Notes under the pieces: generated by a model
Seen by the model: the letters and a program-made list of their open reading frames with translations, nothing else
What the model was told of the DNA's origin: nothing
The model's database searches: none
Made by a program: the position numbers and the translations under genes
In this document: piece by piece, positions 2,985 to 48,072 of the stretch
Position numbering within the stretch: position 1 is the stretch's first letter
Layout of the letters: each line of letters begins with the position of its first letter
Source of the DNA: a virus
Length of the DNA stretch: 64,000 bases
Reading direction: 5' to 3' (one strand)
IMG/VR virus record: IMGVR_UViG_3300044796_000662
Location: 298,938 to 362,937 of that record

Positions 2985-3005
2985 TGTGCACGGTTGTGAG
3001 CTTCA

Positions 3006-3113: not shown

Positions 3114-3133
3114 GGGAAGCCCACAACCGTCAG

Positions 3134-3205
3134 AGCCGGAGAAGGGAATCGAACCCTCTGCGACCTCCTTACGAAAGAGGTGCCCCGCCATGGGGCCTCA
3201 CCGGC
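3134..3205 (-). tRNA. tRNA-Thr(CGT)
   Basis: Acceptor GCCGGTG/CTCCGGC with one T-T mismatch, D arm GCCC-CATGGCG-GGGC, anticodon stem CCTCT/GGAGG with loop TTCGTAA (anticodon CGT), T loop TTCGATT. No CCA. Its 5' end overlaps the stop region of the small gene at 3198. Confidence 0.87.
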
Positions 3206-3475: not shown

Positions 3476-3479
3476 GTAG

Positions 3480-3563
3480 CGTACGGGGCAGGATTCGAAC
3501 CTGCGATGGGTGTTACCCCGGTCGGTTAACGGCCGACTGCCTTGGCCTCTAGGCTACCCGCAC
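3480..3563 (-). tRNA. Class II tRNA with GTT in the anticodon position
   Basis: 84 nt: acceptor GTGCGGG/CCCGTAC (one G-U), D arm GCCTAGAGGCCAAGGC, anticodon stem GTCGG/CCGAC with loop CCGTTAA, a long variable arm (GGGT...ACCC) and T arm GCAGG-TTCGAAT-CCTGC. Discriminator G. The long variable arm and G73 are serine-type features, yet the triplet reads GTT (Asn), and position 33 is C instead of the near-universal T. Confidence 0.75.
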
Positions 3564-3567
3564 ATGG

Positions 3568-3639
3568 CTGCACCCGCAGGACTCGAACCTGCATCTTATC
3601 CGTTAACAGCGGAGCGCACGGCCATTGTGCTAGGGTGCA
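3568..3639 (-). tRNA. tRNA-Asn(GTT)
   Basis: Perfect acceptor TGCACCC/GGGTGCA, D arm GCACAATGGCCGTGC, anticodon loop CTGTTAA (anticodon GTT), T arm GCAGG-TTCGAGT-CCTGC, discriminator G. An ordinary class I tRNA-Asn lying 4 nt from the class II GTT tRNA. Confidence 0.92.
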
Positions 3640-3985
3640 AAAATGAGATGGGTGCGCCTCCCCTTGCGGTTTGGCGCACCCGTCCCCGAAACGACCAAGC
3701 CTTGACCCCGAAGGGCCTCAGCTCGCCCGTTTCCACGAAACGAACAGGAGCGGATGTCATGCCTGCGGATGCGGATTGGTGGTCCACACTCTTGAGCACC
3801 ACTTGACCCCACCTGTCTTATCGGTGGTAGAGAGCCAGTAAGGCGCCGCTTTTCCACGCATTAGGCTCAAAACTTCTGGGCCCAACCGTGGTGGAGATGA
3901 GGGGCTCTCGGTGCGAACCGGGGCCTTTCATCAGTCCCTGCTAAATTGTCAATGAACGGAGACGCCCCGAAGGGCGGCTCGTTAG
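3640..3985. other. Noncoding spacer in the tRNA array
   Basis: No convincing gene. It holds a perfect 9-bp hairpin (gggtgcgcc at 3650-3658 with ggcgcaccc at 3673-3681) just upstream of tRNA-Asn on the minus strand, and a cgccc-ttcg-gggcg-type tetraloop hairpin at about 3962-3979 downstream of tRNA-Gln. A stretch near 3895-3930 (ggtgcgaaccgg) faintly resembles a T arm, but no matching acceptor or anticodon arm was found. These may be processing signals or remnants of decayed tRNAs. Confidence 0.5.
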
Positions 3986-4057
3986 ATCCAGGAGGGGGAG
4001 TTGAACCCACCGTAGCGAGTTTCAGAGTCTCGCGTCCTACCGTTGGACGATCCTGGA
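3986..4057 (-). tRNA. tRNA-Gln(CTG)
   Basis: Perfect acceptor TCCAGGA/TCCTGGA, D arm GTCCAACGGTAGGAC, anticodon stem around CTCTGAA (anticodon CTG) with one A-A mismatch, T loop TTCAACT. The base after the acceptor is T, not the expected G. Confidence 0.85.
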
Positions 4058-4107
4058 ACAGCGATGCCGTCTTCTGATTCGATCTGATCTGGGTACTGCT
4101 TGACCTA

Positions 4108-4181
4108 GTGCGCCCGGAGGGACTTGAACCCTCACTTCAACGGGTAAGAGCCGCGTATGCTGCATTGACATCACAGGCGCA
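4108..4181 (-). tRNA. tRNA-Lys(CTT)
   Basis: Acceptor TGCGCCT/GGGCGCA, anticodon loop CTCTTAC (anticodon CTT) on a stem with one mismatch and one G-U pair, T arm GAGGG-TTCAAGT-CCCTC. Discriminator C. The D arm is less regular than in its neighbours. Confidence 0.8.
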
Positions 4182-4188
4182 TTGACTG

Positions 4189-4261
4189 TGGGAGGCACGG
4201 GAGTTGAACCCGCATCTTGGGACTTAAAAGGAACCTGCTCTACCGATTGAGCTAACCTCCC
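4189..4261 (-). tRNA. tRNA-Lys(TTT)
   Basis: Acceptor GGGAGGT/GCCTCCC, canonical D arm GCTCAATCGGTAGAGC, anticodon loop CTTTTAA (anticodon TTT) on a stem with two mismatches (GGTTC/GTCCC), T arm GCGGG-TTCAACT-CCCGT, discriminator A. The poor anticodon stem is unusual but everything else is canonical. Confidence 0.82.
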
Positions 4262-4312
4262 AGCGACGTGGTAGGGCAGGTCTGTTTGAGTTGAGTGTGC
4301 ATGGTCTTGTGT

Positions 4313-4399
4313 TGGTGGAGCCGTGCGGAATCGAACCGCCTAGCGCAGAGGCCCGACGTTTACAGCGTCAGTCGCCTTCCAAGGACGAACCCCGACTCC
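4313..4399 (-). tRNA. tRNA-Tyr(GTA) with encoded CCA
   Basis: Class II tRNA: acceptor GGAGTCG/CGGCTCC, anticodon stem TGACG/CGTCG with loop CTGTAAA (anticodon GTA), long variable arm, T loop TTCGATT, discriminator A followed by CCA. It is the first gene of the array in the direction of transcription and the only one here with a genomically encoded CCA end. Confidence 0.92.
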
Positions 4400-6583: not shown

Positions 6584-9394
6584 CTACTCGGGCAGGTCGG
6601 CCATCTCGTCGAAGAGGTCCTTCTGACTGCGCTCTGCTTCGGCCTGCGCGTGCTTCGTCAATACACGCTTGGACGCGATGTCGTGGAAGTGCTCGTCCTT
6701 CTCGATGCCGACGAAGGACAGGCCCGCCTCGGTCGCAGCCGCGCACGTCGTCCCTGATCCGCAGTAAGGGTCGAGCACGATGCCATCCTTGGGGGTCACG
6801 AGGCGCACGAGAAAGCTCATGAGCGCAATGGGCTTGACCGTGGGATGGTCGTTGCCGCCCGCCATGTCGTCCACCTCGAAGTGCTCCCGCAGGCTCTCCG
6901 GGATGATCCGCTCGAAGATGGTCGCCTCCAAGCTCTCTGTCTCCGGGTCGAAGGAGCCGAGCACCTCCGTGACCGTCTCCTGGATGCGCATGGTGACGTC
7001 TGTATCGACGCCCTCCTTGATCTTGAAGTAGACGAGCTTGGGCTGGTTTTTGGACTTCGTCTTCGGCGGCTTGGGCTTCTCGAACGCGCTGTTGCGCTCC
7101 GACCTCGACGCCTTCGCCGAGTAGTAGAATGGTGCCTCCGGGACGAACTGACCGAAGAAGCGGCTCGCTCCGCCCGAGTCCCCGTAGTGGAACGGCAGGT
7201 GCTCGCCCTTCGACCAGGACGCACCCGCAGCGTCACTCGTGGCCCTCGGCTGTACATACGGACCGCGACCATCGACGCGACCGCTCTGCTCGTCCATCGC
7301 CTTGACCGGGCACCCCTCGACGCACTCGAAGACCGCGACCTCTTCGTTGCCCTCTGTGTCGCCCGTCTGCGTGCTCGTGAAAGGGTGGCGTGCGCCACCC
7401 CCGAACGGCTTCATACCGTCGTCGAAGCGGTTGATGACGGGCGCCGGGACCTTCTTCGTGCCGACCTTCTCGCAGCCCGCTGCGTGGACCATGACCACGT
7501 TCGCGGGCCAGCGGCCGCCTTCCTTGACGTCGTTGGCACCCGAGAGGTCGGACGAGTTCTTCCAGGAGTTGCCGAGCTTGCCGCCCTTGGCCTTGAGCGC
7601 GGCCACCATCGCCTTGTGGGCTTCGAGATCTGCGGCGTTGGCGTGCTTGATGCGCGTGCCGTCGATGTTCAGACCGCCCGTGCCGGTCGTGACCACCTGC
7701 TCCGCGATGGACGACTCCTCGACCGGCTTGCGGAAACAGAGGACAGGCTCCCATGCGGGCTTGAGGGCGGTGCCCCACCCGTCCCACTTCTTGGCCAGCT
7801 CCGCGATCTCTGCTCGACGGCGCTCCACCTCGTCTTCCGACAAGCCTTCCGCGATTTCGAGCTTCGCGATGGCCTTGCCGATGTTGAGGCTCTTGGGGAA
7901 GCCCTGCCCATGAACCCACTGGAGCACGCTGGGCCCGAACATCGTCGCCACCGTGTCGCGGTTCTCGAAGCCTGCGGCCCGGATGCCGATCGACATGATG
8001 TCCCATGTGCGGGTATTCCCACACCACACGGCCTTGCCGTTGCGTCGAACGTAGAGAGTATGGTGCCTCTCCAGCTCGACGCAGTAGACCGTCCGTCCCT
8101 GCCACTCTTCCGCCGGGACAAGGGTGCGAACGGGATTCTTCAAGCCGGATCGGTCATAAACCTCAGGCTGGTTCTGTACATGGTTAAACGTCACCGCGTA
8201 GGACGGTCGCCGCGCATGAATCTCGCGCCCGTTGATCTTCGGGACACGCTTCTTGGGCTTCGTAACCACCCAGTCGGCAGAGATCCCCATGTACATCGCA
8301 ACCTCTTGCCAATCGTCCCGAAGGCGACTGGAGGTTGTGTACCCCACACGGTGGTCGTGACCGTCACCGCGCATGTACCAATCCCACAGAACCTTCAGAC
8401 GAGAGGAAGGCAGGGTCTTGATCCAGTCGGGAATAAACTTCTCCCAAGACTTGCCGAACTGGCGCAAGTACAGGGTGAGCTGCTTGTCATTGATACGGAG
8501 CTTCCCGATGCTCTCGTAGACCTTCACGTCGAACCAGTCCGACAGACGACGCTGTACTTCTCGAAGATTCTCGGTGTCGAAGTGTGCGATCGAGACGTTG
8601 TACCCGAATCCCTGTTCGTGGCCATCTCGCGGCTTGTTCTTGACGATGCTGGCGCTTCCTTCGGCCAGATACAACCCAAAAAAAGGCAGCCAAGCGTCAA
8701 GTGGGATCACCTTCTCCGGTAGCTCGACTTGATGCCCGTGACTCGTCGTCTGCATGACGGCTGGCAGTTTGAAAGAGTCAGGGTTCTGGAGGTCCATCCG
8801 CCCCCGACTCGTCTTGGTCATCTTGATCGCTCGCCCATGTTCGTCTGCCCTGACGAGGCTGAACTTGGCAGGTGAGCCGAGCGTAGCGACAAACATGTTG
8901 TGGTTTGGCGTGACCAGCAGATCGACCTTGTTGGTCTTGTACCGCACCATCTCGCCAGGATTCGGCTGACGGACAACTTCCTTAGCCCGCTGCCAACCCA
9001 CCTTGTGGGTCTCCGGGTCTAGGGACGCAAACTCTTCGTCCCCGGTCACGTCAGGGAAGCGGACCCAGCCCTTGCGCGTGAGCACCTCCGTGTGCTCGTC
9101 GTAGCACCCCGCGAACGCCAAGAGGTGCCCACCTGGCTTCAGGATGCGGTAACACTCCTGCCAGACGGCGACGGGCGGGATCTCCCACTCCTTGCCCATG
9201 AAGTCACCCCCAGTGTCGAGGCGCTCGCCCTTGAGATAGTGCGCGATGTCTTCGCCCGTTGGCTCGCGATTGCCGATGCCATAGGGGGGATCCGTGACGA
9301 CGCTGTCCATACAGGCGTCCGGCATCGTCTTGAGGACTTCCAGGCAGTCGCCGTTGAGGATCCGATTCCGGAACGCCGCGTCGAGGGTCTTCAC
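6584..9394 (-). CDS. DNA N4-cytosine/N6-adenine methyltransferase interrupted by an intein
   Basis: 936 residues from a GTG preceded by AAGGGCGGGC. The N-extein (1-96) carries the catalytic motif TDPPYG (34-39). Residues 97-460 are an intein. The C-extein resumes with TRTWDIMSIGIRAAGFENRDT and ends with the S-adenosylmethionine-binding motif LDPYCGSGTT about 60 residues from the C-terminus. DPPY before the FxGxG-type motif is the order of the beta class of amino-methyltransferases. After splicing the enzyme would be about 572 residues. It may protect phage DNA from host restriction. A decayed paralogue lies immediately upstream. Confidence 0.9.
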   Translation of the reverse strand: MKTLDAAFRNRILNGDCLEVLKTMPDACMDSVVTDPPYGIGNREPTGEDIAHYLKGERLDTGGDFMGKEWEIPPVAVWQECYRILKPGGHLLAFAGCYDEHTEVLTRKGWVRFPDVTGDEEFASLDPETHKVGWQRAKEVVRQPNPGEMVRYKTNKVDLLVTPNHNMFVATLGSPAKFSLVRADEHGRAIKMTKTSRGRMDLQNPDSFKLPAVMQTTSHGHQVELPEKVIPLDAWLPFFGLYLAEGSASIVKNKPRDGHEQGFGYNVSIAHFDTENLREVQRRLSDWFDVKVYESIGKLRINDKQLTLYLRQFGKSWEKFIPDWIKTLPSSRLKVLWDWYMRGDGHDHRVGYTTSSRLRDDWQEVAMYMGISADWVVTKPKKRVPKINGREIHARRPSYAVTFNHVQNQPEVYDRSGLKNPVRTLVPAEEWQGRTVYCVELERHHTLYVRRNGKAVWCGNTRTWDIMSIGIRAAGFENRDTVATMFGPSVLQWVHGQGFPKSLNIGKAIAKLEIAEGLSEDEVERRRAEIAELAKKWDGWGTALKPAWEPVLCFRKPVEESSIAEQVVTTGTGGLNIDGTRIKHANAADLEAHKAMVAALKAKGGKLGNSWKNSSDLSGANDVKEGGRWPANVVMVHAAGCEKVGTKKVPAPVINRFDDGMKPFGGGARHPFTSTQTGDTEGNEEVAVFECVEGCPVKAMDEQSGRVDGRGPYVQPRATSDAAGASWSKGEHLPFHYGDSGGASRFFGQFVPEAPFYYSAKASRSERNSAFEKPKPPKTKSKNQPKLVYFKIKEGVDTDVTMRIQETVTEVLGSFDPETESLEATIFERIIPESLREHFEVDDMAGGNDHPTVKPIALMSFLVRLVTPKDGIVLDPYCGSGTTCAAATEAGLSFVGIEKDEHFHDIASKRVLTKHAQAEAERSQKDLFDEMADLPE
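8015..9106 (-). mobile_element. Intein with LAGLIDADG homing endonuclease
   Basis: Residues 97-460 of the methyltransferase (364 aa). It begins with Cys97 (CYDEHTEVLTRKGW, block A), has a block B-like TPNHNM at 162-167, and ends VYCVELERHHTLYVRRNG...VWCGN with the C-terminal Asn460 followed by Thr as the first C-extein residue. The residue before Asn is Gly, not the usual His. Two LAGLIDADG-type motifs are visible (FGLYLAEGS at 239-247 and DWYMRGDGHD at 338-347), so it probably encodes a homing endonuclease. It is inserted next to the methyltransferase active-site fold. Confidence 0.9.
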
Positions 9395-13913: not shown

Positions 13914-14231
13914 ATGATGACGCTCCTCGAACTCTCCGACGTGGTCGGCAAGCCGAAGGTCAAGATGAACCTTCCTCTGTGCCAGCTCGGCCATCGGGTG
14001 CAACTTCACTTCTGCCTGCGTCGCAAGAACGCCGGCAGGGTCGAGACCCTCGATGTGCGCGGTCAGTTCCGAGTCATGGCTGTTGGCCTCGATGCTGCAA
14101 GCATGCCCCAGCGGCAAGTGCTTGCGGTCGAGGCCGTGGGCAAGACCCCCTCCTGGCAAGCCGTCAAGAAGGCCAGCGAGTGGAAACGTGTGCTGCCTCC
14201 CGCAATCGCACGGAGGACGGTGATCGAATGA
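13914..14231 (+). CDS. Hypothetical protein
   Basis: 105 residues starting MMTLLELSDVVGKPKVKMN. Mixed alpha/beta, basic C-terminal half. Its stop overlaps the ATG of the next gene (ATGA at 14228), so the two are co-translated. No motif or family is recognised. Confidence 0.7.
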   Translation: MMTLLELSDVVGKPKVKMNLPLCQLGHRVQLHFCLRRKNAGRVETLDVRGQFRVMAVGLDAASMPQRQVLAVEAVGKTPSWQAVKKASEWKRVLPPAIARRTVIE

Positions 14232-14527
14232 AGATGACACCCGTGACCCCTGAGGCTCTGAAACGCCTTCCTGGGGCAATCTGGATGCAGGGATCCAGGT
14301 CCATCTACCGGGGCTCCCCCGTCGAGATGGTCCGACAGATGGCCGCCGAGATGGGCGCCGACCTCTCTGTACATACAACCATCGACACGCTGCTCACGGC
14401 ACTGTACCTGAAGCGTGGGTTGCTCATCGCCATCCCGGAGGACGCGCCCGAGGACGTAGTGGCGGCTCTCTTCGTCCACGCCCTGCTCGACGCCAAGGTT
14501 TCCAAGCCTATCGTGGCCCTCGGATAG
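14228..14527 (+). CDS. Hypothetical protein
   Basis: 99 residues starting MKMTPVTPEALKRLPGAIW, with ATGA overlap to the upstream gene. The middle is helical (SPVEMVRQMAAEMGADLS; TLLTALYLKRG) and the C-terminus acidic then hydrophobic (EDVVAALFVHALLDAKVS). No catalytic motif is seen; the function is unknown. Confidence 0.72.
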   Translation: MKMTPVTPEALKRLPGAIWMQGSRSIYRGSPVEMVRQMAAEMGADLSVHTTIDTLLTALYLKRGLLIAIPEDAPEDVVAALFVHALLDAKVSKPIVALG

Positions 14528-14551
14528 CCTTCTTGTACATACGGTGGGGGT

Positions 14552-15247
14552 ATGGCCCTGCTGATAGCTGCCCGGGTTGCAGCCCGTCACCTGATGCGCG
14601 TCGCCTTCGGCCACGCCCTCGTGGCGTTCGGCATGAAGGATCTCGACCAGCTCTCGAAGATGGGTCGGTCCTTCGGGGTGCTCAGCGCCTACCGTTCGAA
14701 CCTGTCCAAGTCCGAGAACCAAAAGCGCCATGGCGAGCTGGTCGCTGACCTCCAGAAGCTCGGCTTCCCACACACGACCGCGCTCAAGTCGCAGTGGGAG
14801 GACATGGACTCGAAGGTCGTCAAGCACGAGAAGTCGATCCTCGTGCCCAACATCTCGTTCAAGGCCCTCCACGAGCTGGGCAAGAAGTACGAGCAGGACG
14901 CGGTGCTCTACAAGGACCCCTCCGGCTCGGTCGGTATTTACTTCAAAGACGGCACGGCCACGATGGCGTTCGACCCCAAGGGCGACGCCTCGCTCAGCAA
15001 GTCCGTCGATCCGAAGGGCGACTACTCGCGCGGCCGCGGGCTCTCGTTCGGGCTCAAGCTCGTCGAGGACCAGAAGTTCCACTACGACAACGGCCCCATC
15101 ACCCGCGACGATGTCATCAAGAAGCTCGCGCCGGCCGAAGAGTCCAAGGGCGGCGGCGAGTCCGAATGGTGGAAGGGCCAGTCCCCAGAGGCCAAGAAGC
15201 GGTACTGTGAAGACCACCCTGACTCCGGCTACTGCGCGGCGGCCTGA
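14552..15247 (+). CDS. DUF3293-like protein with an N-terminal RVAARH motif
   Basis: 231 residues from an ATG preceded by GGTGGGGG. Residues 45-75 (SAYRSNLSKSENQKRHGEL then ADLQKLGF) and 95-130 (KSILVPNISFKALHELGKKYEQDAVLYKDP) follow the layout I recall for DUF3293-type proteins; function is unknown. The N-terminus (IAARVAARHLMRVA) resembles basic amphipathic leaders of two other proteins in this window. The C-terminus is acidic and ends with a Cys-containing peptide. An upstream cttgtacatacgg could be part of a promoter. Confidence 0.72.
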   Translation: MALLIAARVAARHLMRVAFGHALVAFGMKDLDQLSKMGRSFGVLSAYRSNLSKSENQKRHGELVADLQKLGFPHTTALKSQWEDMDSKVVKHEKSILVPNISFKALHELGKKYEQDAVLYKDPSGSVGIYFKDGTATMAFDPKGDASLSKSVDPKGDYSRGRGLSFGLKLVEDQKFHYDNGPITRDDVIKKLAPAEESKGGGESEWWKGQSPEAKKRYCEDHPDSGYCAAA

Positions 15248-15249
15248 GT

Positions 15250-15606
15250 ATGTACACCTACGACAGGCGTACAGCCTCGGCCTGGGCGTATCACGGCACC
15301 CTCGCCAAACATCTCGCGAGTATACACAAGCACGGGCTCCAGCCCGGCTTCTACCCGAACTACAACGACGCCTACAGCGAGTATGACGACGGGCGTCACC
15401 TCTTCTTCGCTGACGATCCGGAGAACGTGCGGGGCCACTACGGGGACACGCTCGTTCGGTTCCCGTGGCCTGCGGACGCGAAGCCCGACCAGAACACCTT
15501 CGGGCGCATCCTACCGCACCAGTTCGTATCGAAGGGGAAGGTCGCCCCTGAGCACATCGAGGTGGAGCAGGACGGCCGTTGGGTCGGTCTGAGCGACCTG
15601 GTCTAG
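15250..15606 (+). CDS. ADP-ribosyltransferase-fold-like protein
   Basis: 118 residues. YHGTLAKHLASIHKHGLQPGFYP, then HLFFADDPENVRGHYGDTLVRF and a C-terminal FVSKGKVAPEHIEV follow the pattern of small ART-like folds (the H-G-T start strand, an S-I-x-x-x-G-L-x-P turn, a displayed beta strand and the final I-P-P-E-x-I segment), as in KptA/Tpt1-like and phage ART proteins. The NAD-binding His would be H16. Activity is inferred. It starts 2 nt after the previous stop and its end overlaps a convergent small gene. Confidence 0.6.
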   Translation: MYTYDRRTASAWAYHGTLAKHLASIHKHGLQPGFYPNYNDAYSEYDDGRHLFFADDPENVRGHYGDTLVRFPWPADAKPDQNTFGRILPHQFVSKGKVAPEHIEVEQDGRWVGLSDLV

Positions 15607-15773
15607 TTCTTGGGCTCGTCCTTCGTCCGGCGCACGATCTCGGCCTCGGTCTCCTCGACGAGTTCGGCGGGCGTGCTGGCCTTGACCACGATGCCGCTGG
15701 GGACGAACTCGATCTTCGTCTCCCGGTGCGTGAAGCTCCTCCAGCGAGCGAGGCGGTCCTTCGGTTCGGCCAT
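15603..15773 (-). CDS. Small basic/acidic hypothetical protein
   Basis: 56 residues, starting MAEPKDRLARWRSFTHRE and ending RTKDEPKN, with a helical C-terminal half rich in Glu and Lys. Its last codons overlap the end of the convergent plus-strand gene. It is the last gene of the minus-strand operon that starts at the promoter near 18130. No family is recognised. Confidence 0.6.
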   Translation of the reverse strand: MAEPKDRLARWRSFTHRETKIEFVPSGIVVKASTPAELVEETEAEIVRRTKDEPKN

Positions 15774-15788
15774 GGTCTTCACCCTACC

Positions 15789-16346
15789 CTAGTTCTGGTC
15801 TGCGGTCGATCCGTTGGCATCCCGGTGCTTGTCCACGGCGGACAGTGCCACGGCGCGGAACCAGCACCAGAGGTCCGTCATCTTGGCGTCGTCCTTGAAG
15901 ACCAGCTCGTTCGCAGTCTCCTCGACGAGGTTCCAGCGGCCGTCCACGACCCCCTGAACGATCTCCTCGGCGATGGCCACCTCGACCGGCCCCTTGTAGA
16001 CGTCGAGGATCTTCGCCAGCTCCGCGGACAGTGCCACGGTCGTGTCGAGGCGGAGCCGGCGCTCTTCGGGAGCGGTCCCGCGTTCGAGGTCGTCGATCTT
16101 GCGCTGGAGGCGCTGGACCCGGCGTGACCAGAACTCGGGGCCGAGTACCGAATCGGGATCGCCCTCGCGGTAGAGCATCTCCCACTCGATCACGATCATC
16201 ATCCACTTGTAGCCGACATCGGCGTTGATCGCGTCGCGCATGTCCTTGAGGAACTTGCGCCGATCGTCATTGAGCTTCGAGAGGTGATCGGCGTCGCCGT
16301 TGGCGAAACGCTCTTCGACGGTAGGGTACTTCTTGTCGTTGTTCAT
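15789..16346 (-). CDS. Hypothetical helical protein
   Basis: 185 residues starting MNNDKKYPTVEERFANGD. The start at 16346 is favoured because it forms an ATGA overlap with the upstream gene; an ATG 9 nt further upstream is possible. Long helices with Trp and aromatic residues (YKWMMIVIEWEMLYRE) and a coiled-coil tendency at residues 80-95 are seen. No motif is recognised. Part of a seven-gene minus-strand operon. Confidence 0.7.
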   Translation of the reverse strand: MNNDKKYPTVEERFANGDADHLSKLNDDRRKFLKDMRDAINADVGYKWMMIVIEWEMLYREGDPDSVLGPEFWSRRVQRLQRKIDDLERGTAPEERRLRLDTTVALSAELAKILDVYKGPVEVAIAEEIVQGVVDGRWNLVEETANELVFKDDAKMTDLWCWFRAVALSAVDKHRDANGSTADQN

Positions 16347-38331: not shown

Positions 38332-40707
38332 ATGACGACGCCGAGTAGCCACAAGATCTCCAAGGACATGTATCTCGTGCGGCAGCCGATCAGCAAAGCC
38401 GCGCCCGCGGTGGCGAAGGCTGTCGAAGTCCCCACGGACCACATCTACGTCATCGACTGCTCCGGCAGCATGACCTACGACCTGCCGAAGGTCGCCAACC
38501 AGGTGAAGCGGAAGCTGCCGAAGTCGCTCAAGGAGAGCGACACGCTGACCGTCATCTGGTTCTCGGGTCGCGGGCAGTGCGGCGTGCTCCTCGAAGCCGA
38601 GCCGGTCGCCACGCTCAAGGACTTGAAGAAGGTCGAGGATGCGGTCGATCGCTGGATCCGCCCGATCGGGATGACGGGCTTCAAGGAGCCCCTCGTTCTC
38701 GCCAAGGAAGTGGCCGAGCGCCTGACCAAGGGCAACAAGGGTCGCGCGACCTCGCTCTACTTCATGAGCGACGGCTGCGACAACCAGTGGAGCCGTGGCG
38801 AGATCCTCAAGGTGATCGAGGACGTGGGCACGAAGGTCCAGTCGGTCACGATCGTGGAGTACGGCTACTACGCCGACCGTCCGCTGCTCACGTCGATGGC
38901 CGAGAAGGCGGGCGGTACGTTCATCTTCGCCGAGACCTTCGATCGGTACGAGCCGCTCATCGAGGCGGCGATCCACAAGAAGGTCACGACGGCCAAGCGC
39001 ATCGAGGTCGAGGTGAAGGGCGACCAGATCGGCGGCTTCGCGTATGCTCTCTCGGGCGGTGACCTCGTCACGTTCGGAATCGAGGGCGGCAAGATCGCTG
39101 TGCCGGAAGACCTGTCCGAGGTCTACTACCTCTCGCCCTCCGTGATCGGCAAGGGCGATGGCGACGTGGACTACAAGGACTCGGCGCAGGCCGCCGCGCT
39201 CTACGCTGCGGTCAGTCTCTTCGCGGTCCGCATGAAGCCCGACGTCGTCTACCCGCTGCTCAAGGTGCTCGGCGACGTGCAGTACATCGAGCAGTTCAGC
39301 GTGTGCTTCGGCAAGCAGAAGTACAGCGAGTTCATGGACGTCGCGAAGCAGGCGGCGTTCGAGCCGAAGCTGCGGCTCGTCAAGGGCTACGATCCGAAGC
39401 GCGTGCCCCGTGAGGACGCCTTCACCGTGCTCGACGTGCTGAACCTCCTCCAGCAAGACGACCTGGCGACCGTGCTGCTCGACGCTCCGGAGTTCAAGTA
39501 CAGCAAGATCGGCCGTGGGCGCGTCGATGCGTCCGACCAGCTCGACTCGGACGAGCAGGCCGAGATCGAGCGTCTGACCGCCGAGATGAAGGGCGTGAAG
39601 GACTCGAAGAAGATCAAGGAGCTGACCGACAAGATCGCCGAGCTGGCGAACAAGCCCGAGGCTCTCAAGCCCGTGCGCGTCAAGCAGCCGGGCGGCTACC
39701 CGATCCTCGATCTCACCTTCAACGAGGACCGTCCGAACGTCTCGATGAGGGTCAAGCACCAGGTCACCATCGATCTGACCAAGCGCCTCAAGACGGCCCC
39801 CAAGGGGACGGAGAAGGTGCCTGCGAACTTCGAGTGCTTCCAGTTCCGCAACTACGCGGTCATCAAGGATGGCCTCATCAACATCGAGACGCTGCCGGCG
39901 CGCATCTCGACGGGCACCTTCGAGAAGCTTCTCGCTGAAGGGGTCATCGACAAGAACGGGGTCAAGTCGATGGTTCACGGCACGTGGGATGTCCTGCTCG
40001 ACCTCCGCAAGCTGCCGGTCATCAACCGGCAGATGGTCAAGACCCTCAGCGCCAAGGACTTCTTCCAGCGCAGCTACGACCTGACGAAGGCTCAGGCCGC
40101 GCAGAAGGTCTTCAAGGACTACGCCAAGTCCCTGCTCCCTGCGAAGGAAAGCAAGGGCTACGTGGACCAGTACGGCGCGGATGCTGCCACCTGGCTCAAG
40201 GAGCAGGGCATCACGGACTACAACGGCTACCAGCCGCCCAAGACCACGCAGGCCCCGACGACGGACGTCTACGTTGGCAAGGAGCTGAAGGTCAGCCTCA
40301 AGGGGTTGTCGTCGCTCCCCAAGGTCGCCGACGTTCAGGCCAAGATCATGAAGAAGGCCGCTGACGGCACGGTCGAATGGCTGAAGAACCCCAAGCTCAA
40401 CGCCCCGGGCGCCCTCATGGCCGACGCCGTGAAGGAAGTCGAGACGTTCCTGGCCAGCCCTGCGTACACGAAGGCCAAGGACCAGGGAGAGACCCTGAAG
40501 AACTGGCTCGAAGTCCAGAAGAAGGCATCGATCGAGAAGGCCCGCCAGCTCATCTTCGAGGTCGCGCAGGCGACGTTCGTGACGGTCGTGGGCCAGGTCT
40601 GGTTCCAGGAGTTCGCGTCGATCGACGAGAACACCATGAACATCAAGGTCGATGGCAACGAGATCGAGTGCAAGGTCGAGATGAAGGAAGTCGAGATCCG
40701 CATCTGA
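38332..40707 (+). CDS. Von Willebrand factor A domain protein
   Basis: 791 residues from an ATG with GAGAGGA upstream. Residues about 37-220 are a vWA domain: HIYVIDCSGSMTYDL (MIDAS DxSxS), GMTGFKEPL (Thr of MIDAS) and YFMSDGCDNQW (Asp). Such domains bind a metal ion and partner proteins. The rest is a long alpha/beta region with coiled-coil (EQAEIERLTAEMKGVKDSKKIKELTDK, about 405-435), and the C-terminus is acidic. No membrane segment. It heads the operon with membrane, binding-protein and ABC genes, so a role in assembling or regulating that complex is inferred. Confidence 0.85.
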   Translation: MTTPSSHKISKDMYLVRQPISKAAPAVAKAVEVPTDHIYVIDCSGSMTYDLPKVANQVKRKLPKSLKESDTLTVIWFSGRGQCGVLLEAEPVATLKDLKKVEDAVDRWIRPIGMTGFKEPLVLAKEVAERLTKGNKGRATSLYFMSDGCDNQWSRGEILKVIEDVGTKVQSVTIVEYGYYADRPLLTSMAEKAGGTFIFAETFDRYEPLIEAAIHKKVTTAKRIEVEVKGDQIGGFAYALSGGDLVTFGIEGGKIAVPEDLSEVYYLSPSVIGKGDGDVDYKDSAQAAALYAAVSLFAVRMKPDVVYPLLKVLGDVQYIEQFSVCFGKQKYSEFMDVAKQAAFEPKLRLVKGYDPKRVPREDAFTVLDVLNLLQQDDLATVLLDAPEFKYSKIGRGRVDASDQLDSDEQAEIERLTAEMKGVKDSKKIKELTDKIAELANKPEALKPVRVKQPGGYPILDLTFNEDRPNVSMRVKHQVTIDLTKRLKTAPKGTEKVPANFECFQFRNYAVIKDGLINIETLPARISTGTFEKLLAEGVIDKNGVKSMVHGTWDVLLDLRKLPVINRQMVKTLSAKDFFQRSYDLTKAQAAQKVFKDYAKSLLPAKESKGYVDQYGADAATWLKEQGITDYNGYQPPKTTQAPTTDVYVGKELKVSLKGLSSLPKVADVQAKIMKKAADGTVEWLKNPKLNAPGALMADAVKEVETFLASPAYTKAKDQGETLKNWLEVQKKASIEKARQLIFEVAQATFVTVVGQVWFQEFASIDENTMNIKVDGNEIECKVEMKEVEIRI

Positions 40708-40750
40708 CTCACTTCGTGGTCGGTCGGTACACCCGATCGGTGTAGTACCA

Positions 40751-40784
40751 GAGGGCGACGGGATGTTTTCCCGCCGCCCTCTTT
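40751..40784 (+). terminator. Hairpin with short T run after the vWA gene
   Basis: Stem gagggcg-a-cggga/tcccg-c-cgccctc followed by TTTC. It could attenuate transcription between the vWA gene and the downstream genes. Confidence 0.5.
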
Positions 40785-40820
40785 CATGTAGAGGGACGAC
40801 TCCAAGAAAGGCAGGGCAGC

Positions 40821-41513
40821 GTGTCGGACAAGGGAAAGGGACTCTTCGGCGGCTTGAAGGGGATGTTCGTGGAGGAGACTCCCGAGCCCACGCACGCCGC
40901 ACAACCGGCTCCGGCCGCCGCTCCGCCGCCTCCTGCGCGGAACACCCCCGTGCCGGTTATGTCGTCGTTCTCGACGCTTCCCCGCACGCCTGCGGCGCCC
41001 CCTCCCGTCCAGGCGGATGAGGGCTCGCTCAAGTATCTGCGTGGTGAGCTGGCCAAGGCCATCTCGCCGGCCTACGCGGGCTTCATGGCGCAGTACGACG
41101 CTCTCGCGGAAGTCATCCCGGGCGAGGACATGCGCTTCAAGGCCGCCCTGAAGGCGAGCAAGACCACGGTGGCGGATCTCGCGAACGCCCTGGACGGTCT
41201 GACGGCCACGCTGACGGCCACGCACGACAAGTTCAGCGCCACCTACGAGGCGAGCAAGAAGAAGGCGATGGACGCCGCGAACGCGCAGGTCGAGGCCACG
41301 CAGCGCCTCATCGAGACCCGCACGCAACAGCTCGCTGCCATCCAGGCGGAGATCCAGTCCCTCCAGGGCAAGCTTCAGACGGACACGGAAGCTGCACAGA
41401 ACGAAGAGCGGCGCATCGAAGGGACCCGGGCGGGCTTCGAGGCGGCGTACGCACAAGTCGCCGGGGAACTCAACGCACAGAAGGCGCACGTCGGTGCGCA
41501 GCCGAGGAACTGA
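40821..41513 (+). CDS. Coiled-coil protein of the ABC-importer operon
   Basis: 230 residues. A short Lys/Gly start (MSDKGKGLFGGLKGMF) is followed by a Pro/Ala-rich linker (about 20-65) and then a long helical, coiled-coil region (about 130-215, EATQRLIETRTQQLAAIQAEIQSLQGKL). No membrane segment. It may bridge the soluble vWA protein and the membrane protein encoded next. No family is recognised. Confidence 0.75.
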   Translation: MSDKGKGLFGGLKGMFVEETPEPTHAAQPAPAAAPPPPARNTPVPVMSSFSTLPRTPAAPPPVQADEGSLKYLRGELAKAISPAYAGFMAQYDALAEVIPGEDMRFKAALKASKTTVADLANALDGLTATLTATHDKFSATYEASKKKAMDAANAQVEATQRLIETRTQQLAAIQAEIQSLQGKLQTDTEAAQNEERRIEGTRAGFEAAYAQVAGELNAQKAHVGAQPRN

Positions 41514-41516
41514 CCA

Positions 41517-42566
41517 ATGCCCGAGACATCGAAGCCCTGGACCTCACGTCCTGAGGGCAAGTTCGGAACCGCCGTGCTCTTCGCGGCGATCATCGCGGGC
41601 GGCGGAGCCCTGCTCTACTTCTGGGGTCTCATCCTGCCGTTCCTCATCGGCGTGGTGACCAACACCATCGAGCTGGCTGCGCTCTGCGGCGTTCTCGCCC
41701 TCATGGCTGTCGTGGTCTTCGACCCGCGGTGGAGGAACCTGGCCGTCTACGGGTACAAGTCGCTCATGCGTGCCATCACCGGCATGTTCATCGAGATCGA
41801 TCCCATCGGCATCCTCAAGACCTACGTCGTGAGCCTGCGCAAGCGCCTGGACGAGATGGACCAGTCGATCTCCAACCTCTCGGGCCAGATCCGCAAGCTC
41901 AAGGAGCAGATCAGCTCCAACGAGCAGAAGCGCGTGCACAGCCTGCAAGTCATGCAACAGGCCCAACAGCGCGTGAAGGACGATGCGACGGCCACGGGCA
42001 TGAAGAACGTCTTCACGCTCCAGGCTCGCCAGGCCGGGCGCCTGGAGAAGTCGAACCTGACCCTGCAAGGTCTCCTCGACAAGATGGAGGGGATGCTCAA
42101 GGTGCTCCGCAAGTACCGTGAGGCGTCTGCGCTCCTCATCGAGGACATCAACGGCGAAGTCGAGGTCAAGAGCGCCGAGCGCGCCGCGCTGCTCGCCGGG
42201 TACAACGCGTTCTCCAAGGCCAAGAAGATCATGGCCGGTGGTGGCGACGAGAAGGAACTCTTCGACATGACCATGGAGAAGCTGGCCGACGACTACGGCA
42301 TGAAGATGGGCGAGATCGAGAACTTCATGGACATGTCCAAGGGGTTCATCGACGGCGTGGACCTCGACAAGGGCGTCTTCGAGGCGCAGGGTCTCGCGCA
42401 GCTCGAAGCATGGGAGAAGAAGAGCGACAGTCTTCTCCTGCACGGCAGCAACGGCAACGGGAACAACGTCCGCATCGACGTCGCCCCGTCGTACGAAGCG
42501 GCTGCCCCTTTGGATGACGATGCTGCCCCCAACAGCATCTCGGAACTCTTCAACAAGCACAACTGA
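41517..42566 (+). CDS. Membrane protein with cytoplasmic-type coiled coil
   Basis: 349 residues. Two membrane segments at about 17-45 ([20 protein letters not shown] then LPFLIGVV) and 51-70 ([18 protein letters not shown]) are followed by a long helical region with coiled-coil (105-165) resembling PspA-like membrane-stress proteins in layout only. The C-terminus has a Ser/Gly/Asn run and an acidic tail. Starts 3 nt after the previous stop. Likely a structural partner of the importer complex. Confidence 0.78.
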
Positions 42567-42589
42567 CAAGGACGAAGGACGACAACCCC

Positions 42590-44398
42590 ATGGCTACTCG
42601 ACTCAAGCCCCTCCCGAAGGTCCTCATCGGCCTCGCCGGATTCGGGCTCCTGTTCGGACTGTTCAAGTACCTCGTGAGCACGGGCGTCATCGCGATGCCC
42701 GGCCATGCTGCCGAGGTGCCCAAGGCCGCAGCCCTGCCGGACGCCCCGGCGGCCGCCGCAACGACGGCGAACGCTTCGGTTGCCGCTGTCCCCCTGCCCG
42801 GGTCCACGGCCGTCCACAAGGGCACGGACGTGCGCGTCAGCATGTGGGCGTGGAACGCGCAGATGGGCTTCATGTTCGCCAACGGCGGTCCGGACACCAC
42901 GGACGGCTCGCTCATGTCGCAGCACAACGTGAACGTCCACATCACCCGTGAGGACGACACGACCAAGATGCAGGGCATGCTCCTCGCGATGGCGAAGGCG
43001 TACCAGTCGAACCCCAACACGACCGAGGGCGTGCACTTCATCACCCTCATGGGCGACGGTACCGCCGCGTTCTTCGCCGGGATCAATCCGCTCCTCACGA
43101 AGATCTGCAAGGACTGCACGGCCGAAGTCGTCGGCGTGCTCGGCTACTCGCGCGGCGAGGACAAGCTCATGGGGCCGCCCGCCTGGAAGCAGAGCCCCAA
43201 GGCGGCCGTCACAGGCGACGGAGCCCTCATCGCGGGCGTGCTCCGCGATGGCGACTGGAACGTGGCCATGAAGTGGGCAGCGGACAACAACCTGCCCAAC
43301 AACCCGGACGAGACGACGTTCGACCCCGACGCGCTCAACTGGCTCAACGCCAATGACTACATCGAGGCGGGGACCAAGTACATCACGGGCACCTGCGAAG
43401 ATCGCCCCGTCGTCCACCAGGGCAAGCGCACCGGCCAGACGAAGCACGTCTGCGTCAACGGCGTCGTGACCTGGACCCCCGGTGACGTGAACGTCGCGCA
43501 GAAGAAGGGCGGGCTCGTCTCCATCGTCTCGACCAAGGAGTACCGCGCTCAGATGCCCTGCGCCCTCATCGGCATCCACAAGTGGGACGCCGCTCACCCG
43601 GACGCGGTCAAGGGCATGCTCCAGGCCGCGTTCGACGGCGCCGACCAGGTGCGCTCGTACCCGGCTGCTCTCTCGAAGGCGGCTGCGATCAGCGCTGCGG
43701 TCTACCACGGTTCGACCGAGGAGAACGCCGCCTACTGGGAGAAGTATTACAAGGGGGTCACGGAAGCTGACGCGACCGGCCTCCAGGTGCAGCTCGGCGG
43801 GTCGTCGGTCTCGAACCTCGCCGACGACATGCAGATCTTCGGGCTCGCTCCCGGCGCGGCCAACCTGTTCGACGCGACCTACAGCGTCTTCGGAGACATC
43901 GTCGTTCAACAGTACCCGAAGCTCGTACCGAACTACCCGCCGACGAGCGCCATCCTCGACACGTCCTACGTGAAGGCGCTGGCCGCCACTTCGACGGCCA
44001 CGACCACGGCGGACCTGCCCAAGTATGACCAGAACGAGGGCATCACGCAGCTCGTCTCCAAGAAGGCGTGGGCCATCAACTTCGACACGGGCAAGGCCAC
44101 CTTCACGCCCGATGCGAACACGGCGCTCAGCCAGATCACGAAGAACACGGAGATCACCGACCTGCTCATCGAGATCGACGGCTACACGGACAACACCGGG
44201 GACCCGGGGTTCAACAAGACCCTGTCGCAGCAGAGGGCTGACGCCGTGCGCCAGTACCTCATGAAGCAGTCCGCCTCGAACTTCCCGCCCACGCGCTTCA
44301 CCGTGCATGGGTACGGGCAGGACAAGCCGATCGCCAGCAACGAGACCGAGGCTGGCAAGGCGAAGAACCGGCGCGTCGAAATCCTCATGGGGAACTAG
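42590..44398 (+). CDS. ABC-type solute-binding protein fused to an OmpA-like domain
   Basis: 602 residues. Residues 8-29 are a signal anchor, then an Ala/Pro linker to about 75. Residues about 80-450 look like a periplasmic binding protein of the SsuA/TauA/NMT1 type ([20 protein letters not shown], then [52 protein letters not shown]). Residues about 485-602 are an OmpA/MotB-like peptidoglycan-binding domain ([73 protein letters not shown]). So a substrate-capture domain is tethered to inner membrane and cell wall. Permease and ATPase genes follow directly. Confidence 0.85.
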
Positions 44399-45249
44399 TG
44401 GCCAACTCCATCCCCACCGCACCCGCGAGTCCGGCGGCGATTCAAAGTCGCCGGGCTTCGCCCCTCTGGGGCTTCCAGGAAGCCTGGAGGCCAAACGGGC
44501 ACCCGCCCGCCTCCGTGCAGCGGGGCATGGTCATCGTCACGGTTCTCCTCTTCCTCGGGGCTTGGGCCATGAACTCGGGAGGAGTCCTCCCGAGCCCCGG
44601 GGAGGTTCTCGACGCCTTCCCCGCCCTCTTCCAGCAAGGGCTCGTCTTCCAGCTCTACGTGAGCCTTGCGACGAACCTCCAGGCCATCGCCCTCTCGTGC
44701 CTGCTCACGGTTCCTCTCGCGTACCTGACCGTCCTGCCCGCGCTGCGCCCCCTCGTGCACGCGTTCTGCAAGGCACGGTTCCTCAGCCTCACCGGGTTCG
44801 TCATCCTCTTCACGATCACGTTCGGCGGCGGGCACGGCCTCAAGGTCGCGCTCCTTGTCTTCGGGATGAGCACCTTCCTCATCACGAGTCTCAACGAAGT
44901 CGTCGAGAGCATCCCCCGGGAGGAATTCGATCACGCCCGCACGCTCCGCATGGGACCGTGGGGCTCAGTTTGGGAGGTCGTCGTCATCGGCCGCTTCGAT
45001 GCCGTGCTCGACACCATCCGCCAGAACGCAGCCATGGGATTGCTCATGCTGACGATGGTGGAAGGGCTCGTGCGCTTCGAAGGCGGCCTCGGAGCGATGA
45101 TGCTCGCCGAGGACAAGCACCTCAAGCTCGCGGCCGTTGCCGCTGTCCAGCTCATCGTGCTCGGCATCGGCTTCTGTCAGGACTGGTTGATCCTGCTCTT
45201 GCGTCGTGTGATCTGCCCGTACGCCAGCCTGACCCTGGAGCGCCGATGA
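44398..45249 (+). CDS. ABC transporter permease
   Basis: 283 residues from GTG 44398 overlapping the previous stop (TAGTG). About six membrane segments are visible (MVIVTVLLFLGAWAM; FVILFTITFGGGHGLKVALLVFGM; LAAVAAVQLIVLGIGF among them). The cytoplasmic coupling (EAA-type) loop is REEFDHARTLRMGPWGSVWEVVV, which contacts the ATPase. It matches the SsuC/TauC-type importer permease family. The substrate cannot be read from sequence. Overlaps the next gene by ATGA. Confidence 0.88.
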   Translation: MANSIPTAPASPAAIQSRRASPLWGFQEAWRPNGHPPASVQRGMVIVTVLLFLGAWAMNSGGVLPSPGEVLDAFPALFQQGLVFQLYVSLATNLQAIALSCLLTVPLAYLTVLPALRPLVHAFCKARFLSLTGFVILFTITFGGGHGLKVALLVFGMSTFLITSLNEVVESIPREEFDHARTLRMGPWGSVWEVVVIGRFDAVLDTIRQNAAMGLLMLTMVEGLVRFEGGLGAMMLAEDKHLKLAAVAAVQLIVLGIGFCQDWLILLLRRVICPYASLTLERR

Positions 45250-45542
45250 GTAGCAGCGCCAACTTCGTCTACCTGACCGGCTTCGCAGCCGTATGCATCG
45301 TGGGCATCATCGCCGCAGTCGCCGCCGCCGACGATCCAACGGCCGCAACCCACACCCTCGAAACGGAAGGGTGGTCCGACATCCACGTCTACGACTCGGG
45401 GGTTGCGACCGGCTTCGAGGGTTGCTCCGACGACGACGGGATCTACTACCGGGCCACCGGCAAGAACCCCGCGGGCAAGGAAGCGAAGGCCCTCGTGTGC
45501 TGCGGGGCCATTCTCAAGGCGTGCACGGTGAGGATCGAATGA
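45246..45542 (+). CDS. Small membrane-anchored protein
   Basis: 98 residues starting MSSSANFVYLTGFAAVCIVGIIAAVAAADD: an N-terminal membrane segment (8-27), then a small external domain with six Cys-poor strands but a C-terminal CC pair and two further Cys (CSDDDG, VCCGAILKACT) that could form disulfides. ATGA overlaps on both sides link it to the permease and the ATPase. Probably an accessory subunit; it looks like the small phage proteins carrying a YjfA-like secreted fold, but no family is recognised. Confidence 0.75.
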   Translation: MSSSANFVYLTGFAAVCIVGIIAAVAAADDPTAATHTLETEGWSDIHVYDSGVATGFEGCSDDDGIYYRATGKNPAGKEAKALVCCGAILKACTVRIE

Positions 45543-46363
45543 CAATGCAACCGTACGAGCTGCGCGACGTGCTGCTAAGCGTCCGCAACGTCTCGTTGTC
45601 CTACGACGGCAAGCCCGTGCTCACGAACGTCAACGCGGACGTGAGGGACATCGTGCGCCCCAACTGCGTGACGGGGCAGATCGTCGGCATCCTCGGTCCG
45701 AGCGGCGTCGGTAAGACGCAACTCTCGCGCATCATGGCGGGCCTCCAGGAACCGACCTCGGGGCAGGTGACGGTGACGTCCAAGGCCACCCCCGTCAGGG
45801 CGGGGCTCGTCGGGTACGTGCCGCAGAACTACCCACTGCTTCGCCACCGGACCGTGTCCGGCAACCTCATCGTCGCTGCCAAGATGGCCGGGGCGGATGA
45901 TGCGACCGCTCGCGCAAAGGCCCTCGACTACCTCCAGAAGTTCGAACTCGAAGACAAGTGGGACGTGTACCCGGCGCAGCTCTCGGGCGGCCAGCGGCAG
46001 CGCGTCGCCATCGCGCAACAGCTTCTCTGCTCCGAGCACTACCTGATCCTCGACGAGCCGACGACCGGCCTCGACCCGATCATGAAGGATGTCGTCTGCA
46101 ACTTCATCCGTCAGGTCGCGGCCCTCAACGAGGAGAACACCATCCTCGTCGTCACGCACGACATCCCCGCTGTGCTGACCATGGCCGACACGCTCTGGCT
46201 CGTCGGCCGTCAGCGCGACGCCGAGGGCAAGTCCATTGGCGCCAGCATCGCCCAGACCTACAACCTGATCGAGCGTGAGATCACCTGGGAACCGAACGTC
46301 GCCTCGACGGTGGCCTTCCAGGAACTCGCCCGCGAGATCCGAGCACGCTTCGAGACCCTATGA
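45539..46363 (+). CDS. ABC transporter ATP-binding protein
   Basis: 274 residues starting MTMQPYELRDVLLSVRNVSLSYDG. All nucleotide-binding motifs are intact: Walker A GPSGVGKTQ, Q loop (GYVPQNYPLL), signature LSGGQRQRVAIAQQL, Walker B YLILDEPTTGLDP and switch His (VVTHDIPAV). It energises the permease encoded just upstream. Starts by ATGA overlap and ends by ATGA overlap with the exported protein gene. A complete importer set in a phage genome is unusual. Confidence 0.95.
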   Translation: MTMQPYELRDVLLSVRNVSLSYDGKPVLTNVNADVRDIVRPNCVTGQIVGILGPSGVGKTQLSRIMAGLQEPTSGQVTVTSKATPVRAGLVGYVPQNYPLLRHRTVSGNLIVAAKMAGADDATARAKALDYLQKFELEDKWDVYPAQLSGGQRQRVAIAQQLLCSEHYLILDEPTTGLDPIMKDVVCNFIRQVAALNEENTILVVTHDIPAVLTMADTLWLVGRQRDAEGKSIGASIAQTYNLIEREITWEPNVASTVAFQELAREIRARFETL

Positions 46364-47163
46364 ATCTTAAACTGAATCGGAGTGCAGTCCGTCTATACCT
46401 GCAACTCACTATCGCCCTCGCTCTCCTGCCATCGACCGCGTGGGCGTACCCCTCGGCTGTCGTCTTTTCCCCCAACGGCGAGGCGCACGTGCTCGGCAGC
46501 GTGGGCCTGCTCGCGTACACGTCTACGAACTTCTCCCCCGGCCACGTCACGCCAGGGGCCTCGTGGTTCGGGATCGAGACCGGCCTCCTGCCGCGTTGGG
46601 CGTACGGAGATTCCGGCGTGTCCTTCGGAGGTCTTGAGGTCGGCTTCGACGTCATCACCCCGTACGCCCTCGACACGGTCAAGCCCGTGTTCAACGCGAA
46701 GCTCGGCCTCGTGACCGAGGGCACCTACTCGCCGAGCGTGGCCGTGGGCGTCATGGAGGTCTCCCCGGCCTTCCCCGCGATGAACTTCCTGTTCGTCTCG
46801 GCCACGAAGACCCTCGGTCCCGCCGGCAGGCTGACGCTCGGGTTCGGGGACAACACCGGCTCCAGCTCCGTCTTCTACGGCAGCTTCCCGTTCACGACCG
46901 GGGCGAAGCAGGCGGTCATGGCCGCGTACGAGTCACCGCTCCTGTTCGACCGCATCGGCTTCGTCGCCGACTACTTCGGCGGTGTAAGCGAGGTGAGTGA
47001 CCTCTACACAGGCGTGACGCTGTCCCTCTCCGCCAACACCACCGTTGCCCTCGGAGCCTTCTTCGACAACGACCGCACCGCCGCTACGGGCAAGTACGAC
47101 GGGATGTTCGCGTACCTCACGAAGAACTTCGACGCTACCAAGCTCTTCGACAAGCAGCCATGA
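46360..47163 (+). CDS. Exported outer-membrane barrel-like protein
   Basis: 267 residues. An N-terminal signal peptide (basic MNLKLNRSAVRLYLQ, hydrophobic LTIALALLPSTAWA, cleavage after AWA) precedes a beta-rich mature part with alternating strands (VLGSVGLLAYTST; LEVGFDVITPYALD; LTLGFGDNTG; VTLSLSANTTVALGAFF) ending in F-aromatic segments. This resembles small porin-like outer-membrane barrels, which fits a Gram-negative host. Co-translated with the ATPase; likely the outer-membrane part of the same uptake system. Confidence 0.8.
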   Translation: MNLKLNRSAVRLYLQLTIALALLPSTAWAYPSAVVFSPNGEAHVLGSVGLLAYTSTNFSPGHVTPGASWFGIETGLLPRWAYGDSGVSFGGLEVGFDVITPYALDTVKPVFNAKLGLVTEGTYSPSVAVGVMEVSPAFPAMNFLFVSATKTLGPAGRLTLGFGDNTGSSSVFYGSFPFTTGAKQAVMAAYESPLLFDRIGFVADYFGGVSEVSDLYTGVTLSLSANTTVALGAFFDNDRTAATGKYDGMFAYLTKNFDATKLFDKQP

Positions 47164-47543
47164 CCAAGGACTCCTCCGACGAATCCGACGCCCCCGTGAT
47201 CCAGGCGGGAGTCGTCTACGTCGGAGAGGAGGAGTTCATCGGGGCGATGCCCGTCCGGACCGATCTGCCCATCGAGCCCCAAGACCCGAAGGACAGCATC
47301 GGCGCCAAGGAGTGGGCGCAGTACGGCAACTGCATCGTATACGTCCCCAATGGCGGTCCGCTCAACGCAGACTGGACCTTGGCCGAGGGCGGTACGGTGC
47401 TCATTCGCTCGACCAAAGGCGGATGGTGCATGACCGAGATGCGCAAGGACTCGAAGAGCTGGTTCGTCATCTGCGACAACAAGAGGGTGCCCATCGTCTG
47501 GAACAACGAGCGCGCCTGCTGGGTATCCACCGTAGAGGTCTGA
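47160..47543 (+). CDS. Hypothetical protein at the end of the importer operon
   Basis: 127 residues starting MTKDSSDESDAPVIQAGV. Acidic N-terminus then a beta-rich domain with many Trp and Cys (NADWTLAEGGTVLIRS; WFVICDNKRVPIVWN; ERACWVSTVEV). No signal peptide. Overlaps the barrel gene by ATGA. Function unknown. Confidence 0.72.
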   Translation: MTKDSSDESDAPVIQAGVVYVGEEEFIGAMPVRTDLPIEPQDPKDSIGAKEWAQYGNCIVYVPNGGPLNADWTLAEGGTVLIRSTKGGWCMTEMRKDSKSWFVICDNKRVPIVWNNERACWVSTVEV

Positions 47544-47544
47544 C

Positions 47545-48072
47545 ATGAACAAGATCGCCGTTTACGCAGGCTCGTTCGATCCCATCACAACCGGCCACGA
47601 GAACATCATTCACAGGGCGGTGCCGCTCTTCGACAAGTTCATCATCGCCATCGGTCGCAACGCTTCGAAGAAGGGCGTCCTCTTCGACATTCAAGAGAGG
47701 ATCGACCTGATCAAGCACGCGTGCGGCCCCCTCATTTCAGCGAGGGAGATCGAGGTCACGAGCTTCGACGGCCTGCTCGTGAACTTCTGCCGAGACCGGG
47801 GTGCCAACATCATCGTCCGCGGCCTTCGCGCCGCGATGGACTTCGAGTACGAGTTGACCATCGCCCTCGCGAACAAGACACAGGCCAGCGACATCGAGAC
47901 GGTCTTCCTGCCCGCCGAGCCGAACGTGAGCTTCGTCTCGTCGAGCATCATCAAGGAGATCGCCTCACACGGAGGGAACGTCCGTGCCTTCTGCTCCCCC
48001 TACGTCGAGCAGAAGCTCTGGGCCAAGTTCGGCTACGGGGGCAAGAGTGGGCAAGCCGAACCCACACGCTAA
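47545..48072 (+). CDS. coaD: Phosphopantetheine adenylyltransferase
   Basis: 175 residues starting MNKIAVYAGSFDPITTGHENII. It has the nucleotidyltransferase T-x-G-H motif (PITTGH), the RGLRAAMDFEYE block, and the SSSIIKEIA (ISST-like) motif that binds ATP. The enzyme makes dephospho-CoA from 4'-phosphopantetheine and ATP. Length (about 160-170) and all motifs match functional bacterial CoaD. Presence in a phage suggests boosting of CoA synthesis during infection. It starts right after the importer operon. Confidence 0.95.
   Translation: MNKIAVYAGSFDPITTGHENIIHRAVPLFDKFIIAIGRNASKKGVLFDIQERIDLIKHACGPLISAREIEVTSFDGLLVNFCRDRGANIIVRGLRAAMDFEYELTIALANKTQASDIETVFLPAEPNVSFVSSSIIKEIASHGGNVRAFCSPYVEQKLWAKFGYGGKSGQAEPTR

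Follow-up and report, generated by a model that had tools for sequence, protein, structure and literature searches.

The final 64,000 nucleotides of virus record IMGVR_UViG_3300044796_000662 (positions 298,938 to 362,937, hereafter the window) carry a five-gene module at 40821-46363. It encodes a soluble coiled-coil protein (CC1), a membrane-anchored coiled-coil protein (memCC), a solute-binding protein (SBP) fused to an OmpA-like domain (SBP-OmpA), a permease, and an ATP-binding cassette (ABC) ATPase. We read it as a phage copy of a bacterial envelope module, most likely serving ABC-coupled upkeep or remodelling of the inner membrane in the infected cell (probability about 0.55). The 362,937-bp record, whose end the window forms, belongs to a tailed phage. 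It encodes a TerL of 674 aa, a portal, a head-protease-like protein, a UvsX-like recombinase, a DNA polymerase, a helicase, and a DNA ligase. The terminase family PF03237 gave no match to the TerL of the window lineage, which was recovered by the terminase model phrog_2 and direct reading.

The five genes recur in a fixed order in huge phages and bacteria

The binding domain is encoded in 84 IMG/VR contigs and 311 bacterial stretches, and the order recurring across loci is CC1 - memCC - SBP/OmpA - permease - ATPase. Wherever all three transporter genes were present, the SBP-permease-ATPase order was identical (128/128 loci; 73 viral, 55 cellular). In each of the 84 loci in which the memCC gene or its diverged viral form could be recognised, it lay upstream of the SBP gene. 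CC1 occupies the corresponding place in most viral loci, as it does in the Acidobacteria gp2, Chitinophaga, and Hymenobacter operons. The complete circular Lak-A1 genome (541 kb), in which TAG is read as Q, and the 735-kb phage LR756501 each have all five genes in order, with CC1 homologues at E 3e-27 and 1.1e-31, respectively. The 462-kb LR756500 has a diverged form; its memCC is weakly recognised by a single-sequence search, and the coiled-coil gene upstream of memCC falls in a separate cluster. Searching 50,697 GenBank phage records, we found memCC relatives only in 15 Lak records (540-552 kb) and two 735-kb records. A terminase or gp23 capsid match was obtained for 19 of the 36 viral records tested, the remainder being fragments or undetected; a few small viral contigs could be host DNA.

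In bacteria, the module is chromosomal, for example in the complete Minicystis rosea chromosome, and it occurs also in Acidobacteriota and Bacteroidota. In three Hymenobacter loci (L164, L166, and L171), the genes behind the operon read by eye as those of a sigma-54-type response regulator and a sensor kinase, which suggests that its expression there is stress-regulated.

A bacterial operon of this kind has been predicted before. Ravi et al. 2024 (PMC11237479) give it as PspA / TM-Snf7 - ABC ATPase - permease - PBPB-OmpA (e.g. OGG56892.1) and, on data of their own, predict that it links membrane remodelling with solute transport, its OmpA domain resting on peptidoglycan. This operon and the module have in common an ESCRT-III/PspA-family protein with or without transmembrane (TM) helices, an ABC ATPase, a permease, and a solute-binding-OmpA fusion, and the window genes join these four in one operon. 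The published operon has a double AAA+ ATPase, whereas the phage and some bacterial versions lack it, and the phage version adds a coiled-coil gene. No classical AAA+ ATPase lies beside the window module; one is present in the Acidobacteria locus L096. There (14105-15823), and in two further Acidobacteria loci (L093 and L103), genes for a membrane coiled-coil protein and an AAA+ ATPase come after that for the ABC ATPase, in agreement with the published operon.

We found no mention of phage carriage in the main text of PMC11237479. Likewise, text searches turned up no mention of the module in phages in the main texts of a 2026 jumbo-phage review, the 2020 huge-phage paper, and PMC7824862; their supplements, where it may be annotated, lay outside the search. 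The Lak paper names only a magnesium transporter. An earlier note on this DNA had stated that such a machine is not a known phage module. This claim holds for the literature searched, but the bacterial operon had already been predicted (PMC11237479). The Ter-type systems and pspA-like genes of huge phages (PMC7824862, PMC12363816) resemble the module in being envelope-stress type genes; an ABC importer or an OmpA-fused binding protein is not described there.

memCC has a predicted PspA/Vipp1-like fold

The earlier note had listed a membrane coiled-coil protein, which does exist, but had overlooked that it is the PspA/Vipp1/ESCRT-III-like key partner. PF04012 (PspA_IM30) matches 7 of 29 memCC homologues (best 1.7e-9). 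Comparing a memCC profile with the PDB, we obtained Vipp1 as the top match (E 0.0013). Consistent with this, the seven best PDB fold matches of the AlphaFold model were all Vipp1 or PspA, and the match to 6zvs reached a TMt of 0.85 across 139 columns. In the Acidobacteria operons, a Pfam-positive PspA takes the place of memCC (hhalign 86%); the memCC family and its diverged viral form are matched at 98.6% by hhalign. By the helical hairpin fold of its model, memCC is assigned to the ESCRT-III superfamily as a PspA/Vipp1-like member. It aligns with PspA/Vipp1 (IM30) over the amphipathic-helix and alpha1 region, but it differs in having two N-terminal TM helices, and the window copy falls under Pfam detection. 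For CC1, no Pfam family scored above the cut-off. When the CC1 family was compared by profile with its counterpart in Armatimonadota, the match was moderate (96%), and weak as evidence because these are coiled coils.

The transporter is of NitT/TauT type with a predicted tie to the cell wall

The AlphaFold model of SBP-OmpA (pLDDT, the predicted local distance difference test score, of 88) matched NrtA (1.6e-10), CmpA (3.2e-10), and TauA (7e-10) in the PDB, and its C-terminal part matched OmpA-like peptidoglycan-binding domains. The protein also matched PF00691 (2.3e-19), and its Lak and 735-kb phage homologues exceed the Pfam NMT1_2 and OmpA thresholds. The modelled N-terminal helix covers residues 7-30, and no lipobox was seen by eye. 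Because this helix is combined with a peptidoglycan-type OmpA-like domain, SBP-OmpA is predicted to tie the inner membrane to the cell wall. Over the phage and bacterial copies, 42 SBP positions are invariant and no residue distinguishes the two classes, which suggests that both may take the same ligand.

The permease profile matched CmpB (1.5e-5) and a nitrate permease (0.0063) in the PDB. The 735-kb phage permease passes the PF00528 cut-off, and the window copy alone falls below it. SaoP (NCBIfam NF040733) was rejected as the permease identity (score 40.5 bits, cut-off 295). In the ATPase, Walker A, Q-loop, LSGGQ, Walker B, and H-loop are all present, and a motif survey found these retained in 72-76 of 76 viral relatives. 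Judged from sequence, the binding protein, permease, and ATPase form a complete type-I ABC importer of the NitT/TauT type, for which transport is predicted.

The claim of the earlier note that the phage encodes a complete importer with cell-wall attachment and intact ATPase motifs is thus borne out. Its outer-membrane span is not. We found no conserved outer-membrane component among the module proteins: the OmpA-like domain belongs to the peptidoglycan-binding type, and no conservation was seen for the exported 267-aa protein. An outer-membrane importer was rejected on the type of the OmpA-like domain and on the inner-membrane anchor helix of the SBP. NitT/TauT importers take up nitrate, bicarbonate, taurine/sulfonates, and thiamine precursors. 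The module shares the binding-domain fold, the permease type, and the single ATPase with NrtABCD, CmpABCD, and TauABC, but its binding domain is TM-anchored, fused to a peptidoglycan-binding domain, and only ~10% identical to NrtA.

Purifying selection maintains the module

Between viral pairs, the median ratio of nonsynonymous to synonymous substitution rates (dN/dS) was 0.16-0.17 for the SBP, the permease, the ATPase, and the diverged memCC family. Purifying selection thus maintains the module, and these values, together with the retained motifs, agree with the earlier proposal that selection keeps it working. The module genes have diverged in step (Mantel r 0.955-0.974, n=68), which shows joint inheritance, not physical interaction.

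In the SBP tree, five other viral contigs form a group with the window copy (support 98). Forty other viral copies fall together, on a joint branch that is weak around a well-supported 38-row core, and the SBPs of Lak and the 735-kb phage make a third, deep pair. The Acidobacteria gp2 copies (L114, L115, L117, L119, and L121) nest among the viral ones; phage-to-bacterium transfer may lie behind this, the root and long branches leaving the direction unsettled. Altogether, the tree requires at least four virus-cell changes. A 479-kb viral contig (L018, IMGVR 3300044957_000763) has its module in the Armatimonadota arrangement, in which the membrane coiled-coil and CC1-like genes lie downstream. 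It also groups with Armatimonadota. On both grounds, the module of this contig is a separate acquisition.

Boundaries of the unit and neighbouring genes

The functional unit comprises five genes, not the nine-gene operon proposed earlier. All nine open reading frames exist, roughly where they had been placed (Table 1), and the four-nt overlaps linking the permease, 98-aa, ATPase, barrel, and 127-aa genes are exact; the SBP and permease genes overlap by 1 nt. Among the fetched loci, the five-gene order recurred and the full nine did not. The vWA gene matches phrog_2426 (E 8e-181), a family present in 500 phage records, mainly Ackermannviridae, and the module is missing from those examined; the LIMEstone1 annotation lists a homologue as a confirmed structural protein. 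In relatives, the distance between vWA and the module is ~45 kb in G003, ~64 kb in G004, and ~100 kb in G002. It adjoins the module only in the window and in G001, where an opposite-strand open reading frame intervenes. Because of these distances and the terminator-like hairpin behind vWA, we set this gene apart from the module. Homologues of the 98-aa, barrel, and 127-aa genes are absent from every fetched locus. Neither a Pfam family nor a phage relative was found for the barrel protein, and no family scored above the cut-off for the 127-aa protein. These three genes are local, the barrel and 127-aa genes being found only here, and lie outside the conserved module. The nine-gene unit was rejected on the hairpin, the distant vWA, and the three local genes without homologues, and with it the membership of vWA and the barrel protein.

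Table 1. Features of the module region and its flanks (window coordinates)
Feature	Position	Strand	Remarks
vWA protein of phrog_2426	38332..40707	+	independent phage gene, neighbour only
Terminator-like hairpin between vWA and module	40750..40782	+	-25.5 kcal/mol, z -5.5, then UUUC; inverted repeat I7
CC1, soluble coiled-coil protein, 230 aa	40821..41513	+	first gene of the module
memCC, 349 aa	41517..42566	+	two N-terminal TM helices, then PspA/Vipp1/ESCRT-III-like helical domain
SBP-OmpA, 602 aa	42590..44398	+	N-terminal TM anchor, NitT/TauT (NrtA/CmpA/TauA-like) domain, C-terminal OmpA-like peptidoglycan-binding domain
Permease, NitT/TauT (CmpB/NrtB) type, 283 aa	44398..45249	+	PDB profile matches
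Small exported Cys-rich protein, 98 aa	45246..45542	+	local insertion between permease and ATPase; phrog_902 E 2.4e-5
ABC ATPase, 274 aa	45539..46363	+	PF00005 2.3e-27
Exported protein (barrel), 267 aa	46360..47163	+	signal peptide and beta-rich by eye; outside conserved module
127-aa protein	47160..47543	+	outside conserved module

The gene run goes on past 47543. A coaD-like cytidylyltransferase gene, unusual for a phage, begins one base past the 127-aa gene (47545-48072, + strand), and CYTH, NT5C-nucleotidase, and papain-like protease genes lie 3' of it. A sigma-70 promoter scan found no promoter. In the 529-kb relative G002, the vWA gene is in two pieces (G002:C1:112664-115593), one with an in-frame TGA. 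Elsewhere in the window, an N6/N4 DNA methyltransferase (6584-9394, - strand) is divided into two parts (residues ~11-97 and ~727-920) by a long insert that is probably an intein. Twelve tRNA genes are packed within 4.3 kb (72-4399, - strand); among them are Phe and Asn pairs that share an anticodon, and Lys and Glu sets with two anticodons.

Discussion

We favour membrane remodelling on several grounds: the fixed five-gene order, also in Lak-A1 and the 735-kb phage, the joint divergence and purifying selection, the NitT/TauT identity shared by binding domain and permease, the prediction of Ravi et al., and the PspA link, which appears in the Pfam matches of memCC homologues, the Vipp1 profile match, the fold search, and the Acidobacteria PspA occupying the same operon place. 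Families, gene order, conservation, and selection were computed here; a physical complex, its coupling, and a benefit to the phage are what we infer. From sequence and fold, the NitT/TauT-type permease and ATPase would sit in the inner membrane as an importer that uses or senses a small solute, and the SBP would span from this membrane, through its TM helix, to the peptidoglycan, through its OmpA-like domain. The memCC protein, membrane-anchored on the cytoplasmic side, would coat and reshape the inner membrane with CC1 as its soluble partner. The wall-tethered receptor might read solute binding or the envelope state and relay this signal via the ABC transporter, which would control assembly of the PspA-like coat. 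Such a coat would keep the inner membrane of the infected cell sealed and energised during huge-phage infection.

Several points weigh against this proposal. The window memCC itself has no Pfam hit, staying below the curated PF04012 cut-off, and the Foldseek E-values for memCC are modest (0.005-0.06). No AAA+ ATPase of the Vps4 kind lies beside the phage version, and our literature search found no experiment on the module. Plain import is also conceivable, and the conserved transporter motifs are equally consistent with nutrient uptake.

A plain auxiliary importer would bring in a small anion or vitamin precursor as a supply for replication, and the PspA-like and coiled-coil proteins would do no more than shield the membrane from the extra transporter. 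The complete transporter with its intact motifs, a binding domain nearest to NrtA, CmpA, and TauA, and invariant ligand-site-type motifs all agree with such a role. We nevertheless consider it rather unlikely: the binding proteins of ordinary NitT/TauT importers lack a peptidoglycan tether, the PspA-like partner accompanies the transporter in nearly all viral loci, and no single-pathway metabolic gene lies alongside.

Superinfection exclusion or defence appears improbable. Here, the wall-tethered receptor and the membrane coat would stop DNA entry by competing phages in the manner of the jumbo-phage Ter-type systems, which Iyer et al. 2021 (PMC7824862) place under pseudolysogeny and anti-superinfection adaptations; the module does sit in the envelope, the site of DNA entry. 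However, the ten bacterial genomes examined, among them the complete Minicystis chromosome, have one full-length module copy each, and the bacterial module is conserved with no obvious defence neighbours (judged by cluster only, without PADLOC).

A recently captured host segment with no function in the phage, the pickup in one strain that the earlier note named as its own refutation, has close bacterial-chromosome relatives in its favour (63% identity in Acidobacteriota) but is rejected as highly improbable by the viral grouping of the window copy in the SBP tree and by purifying selection across many diverged phage lineages.

Returning to membrane remodelling, we tentatively extend it to a broader possibility, that the largest phages share a self-encoded ESCRT-III-like remodelling machine which a wall-anchored ABC importer would drive or gate and which would keep the host inner membrane sealed or shape an infection-specific membrane. 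If true, this machine would be a hallmark of huge-phage life, kept in several lineages that diverged separately. Huge phages, up to the 735-kb LR756501, repeatedly carry an envelope operon that in bacteria had been no more than a genome prediction, which suggests that giant phages need to maintain or remodel membranes. Several unannotated gene families thereby gain a testable function, and cultured bacteria have the same operon.

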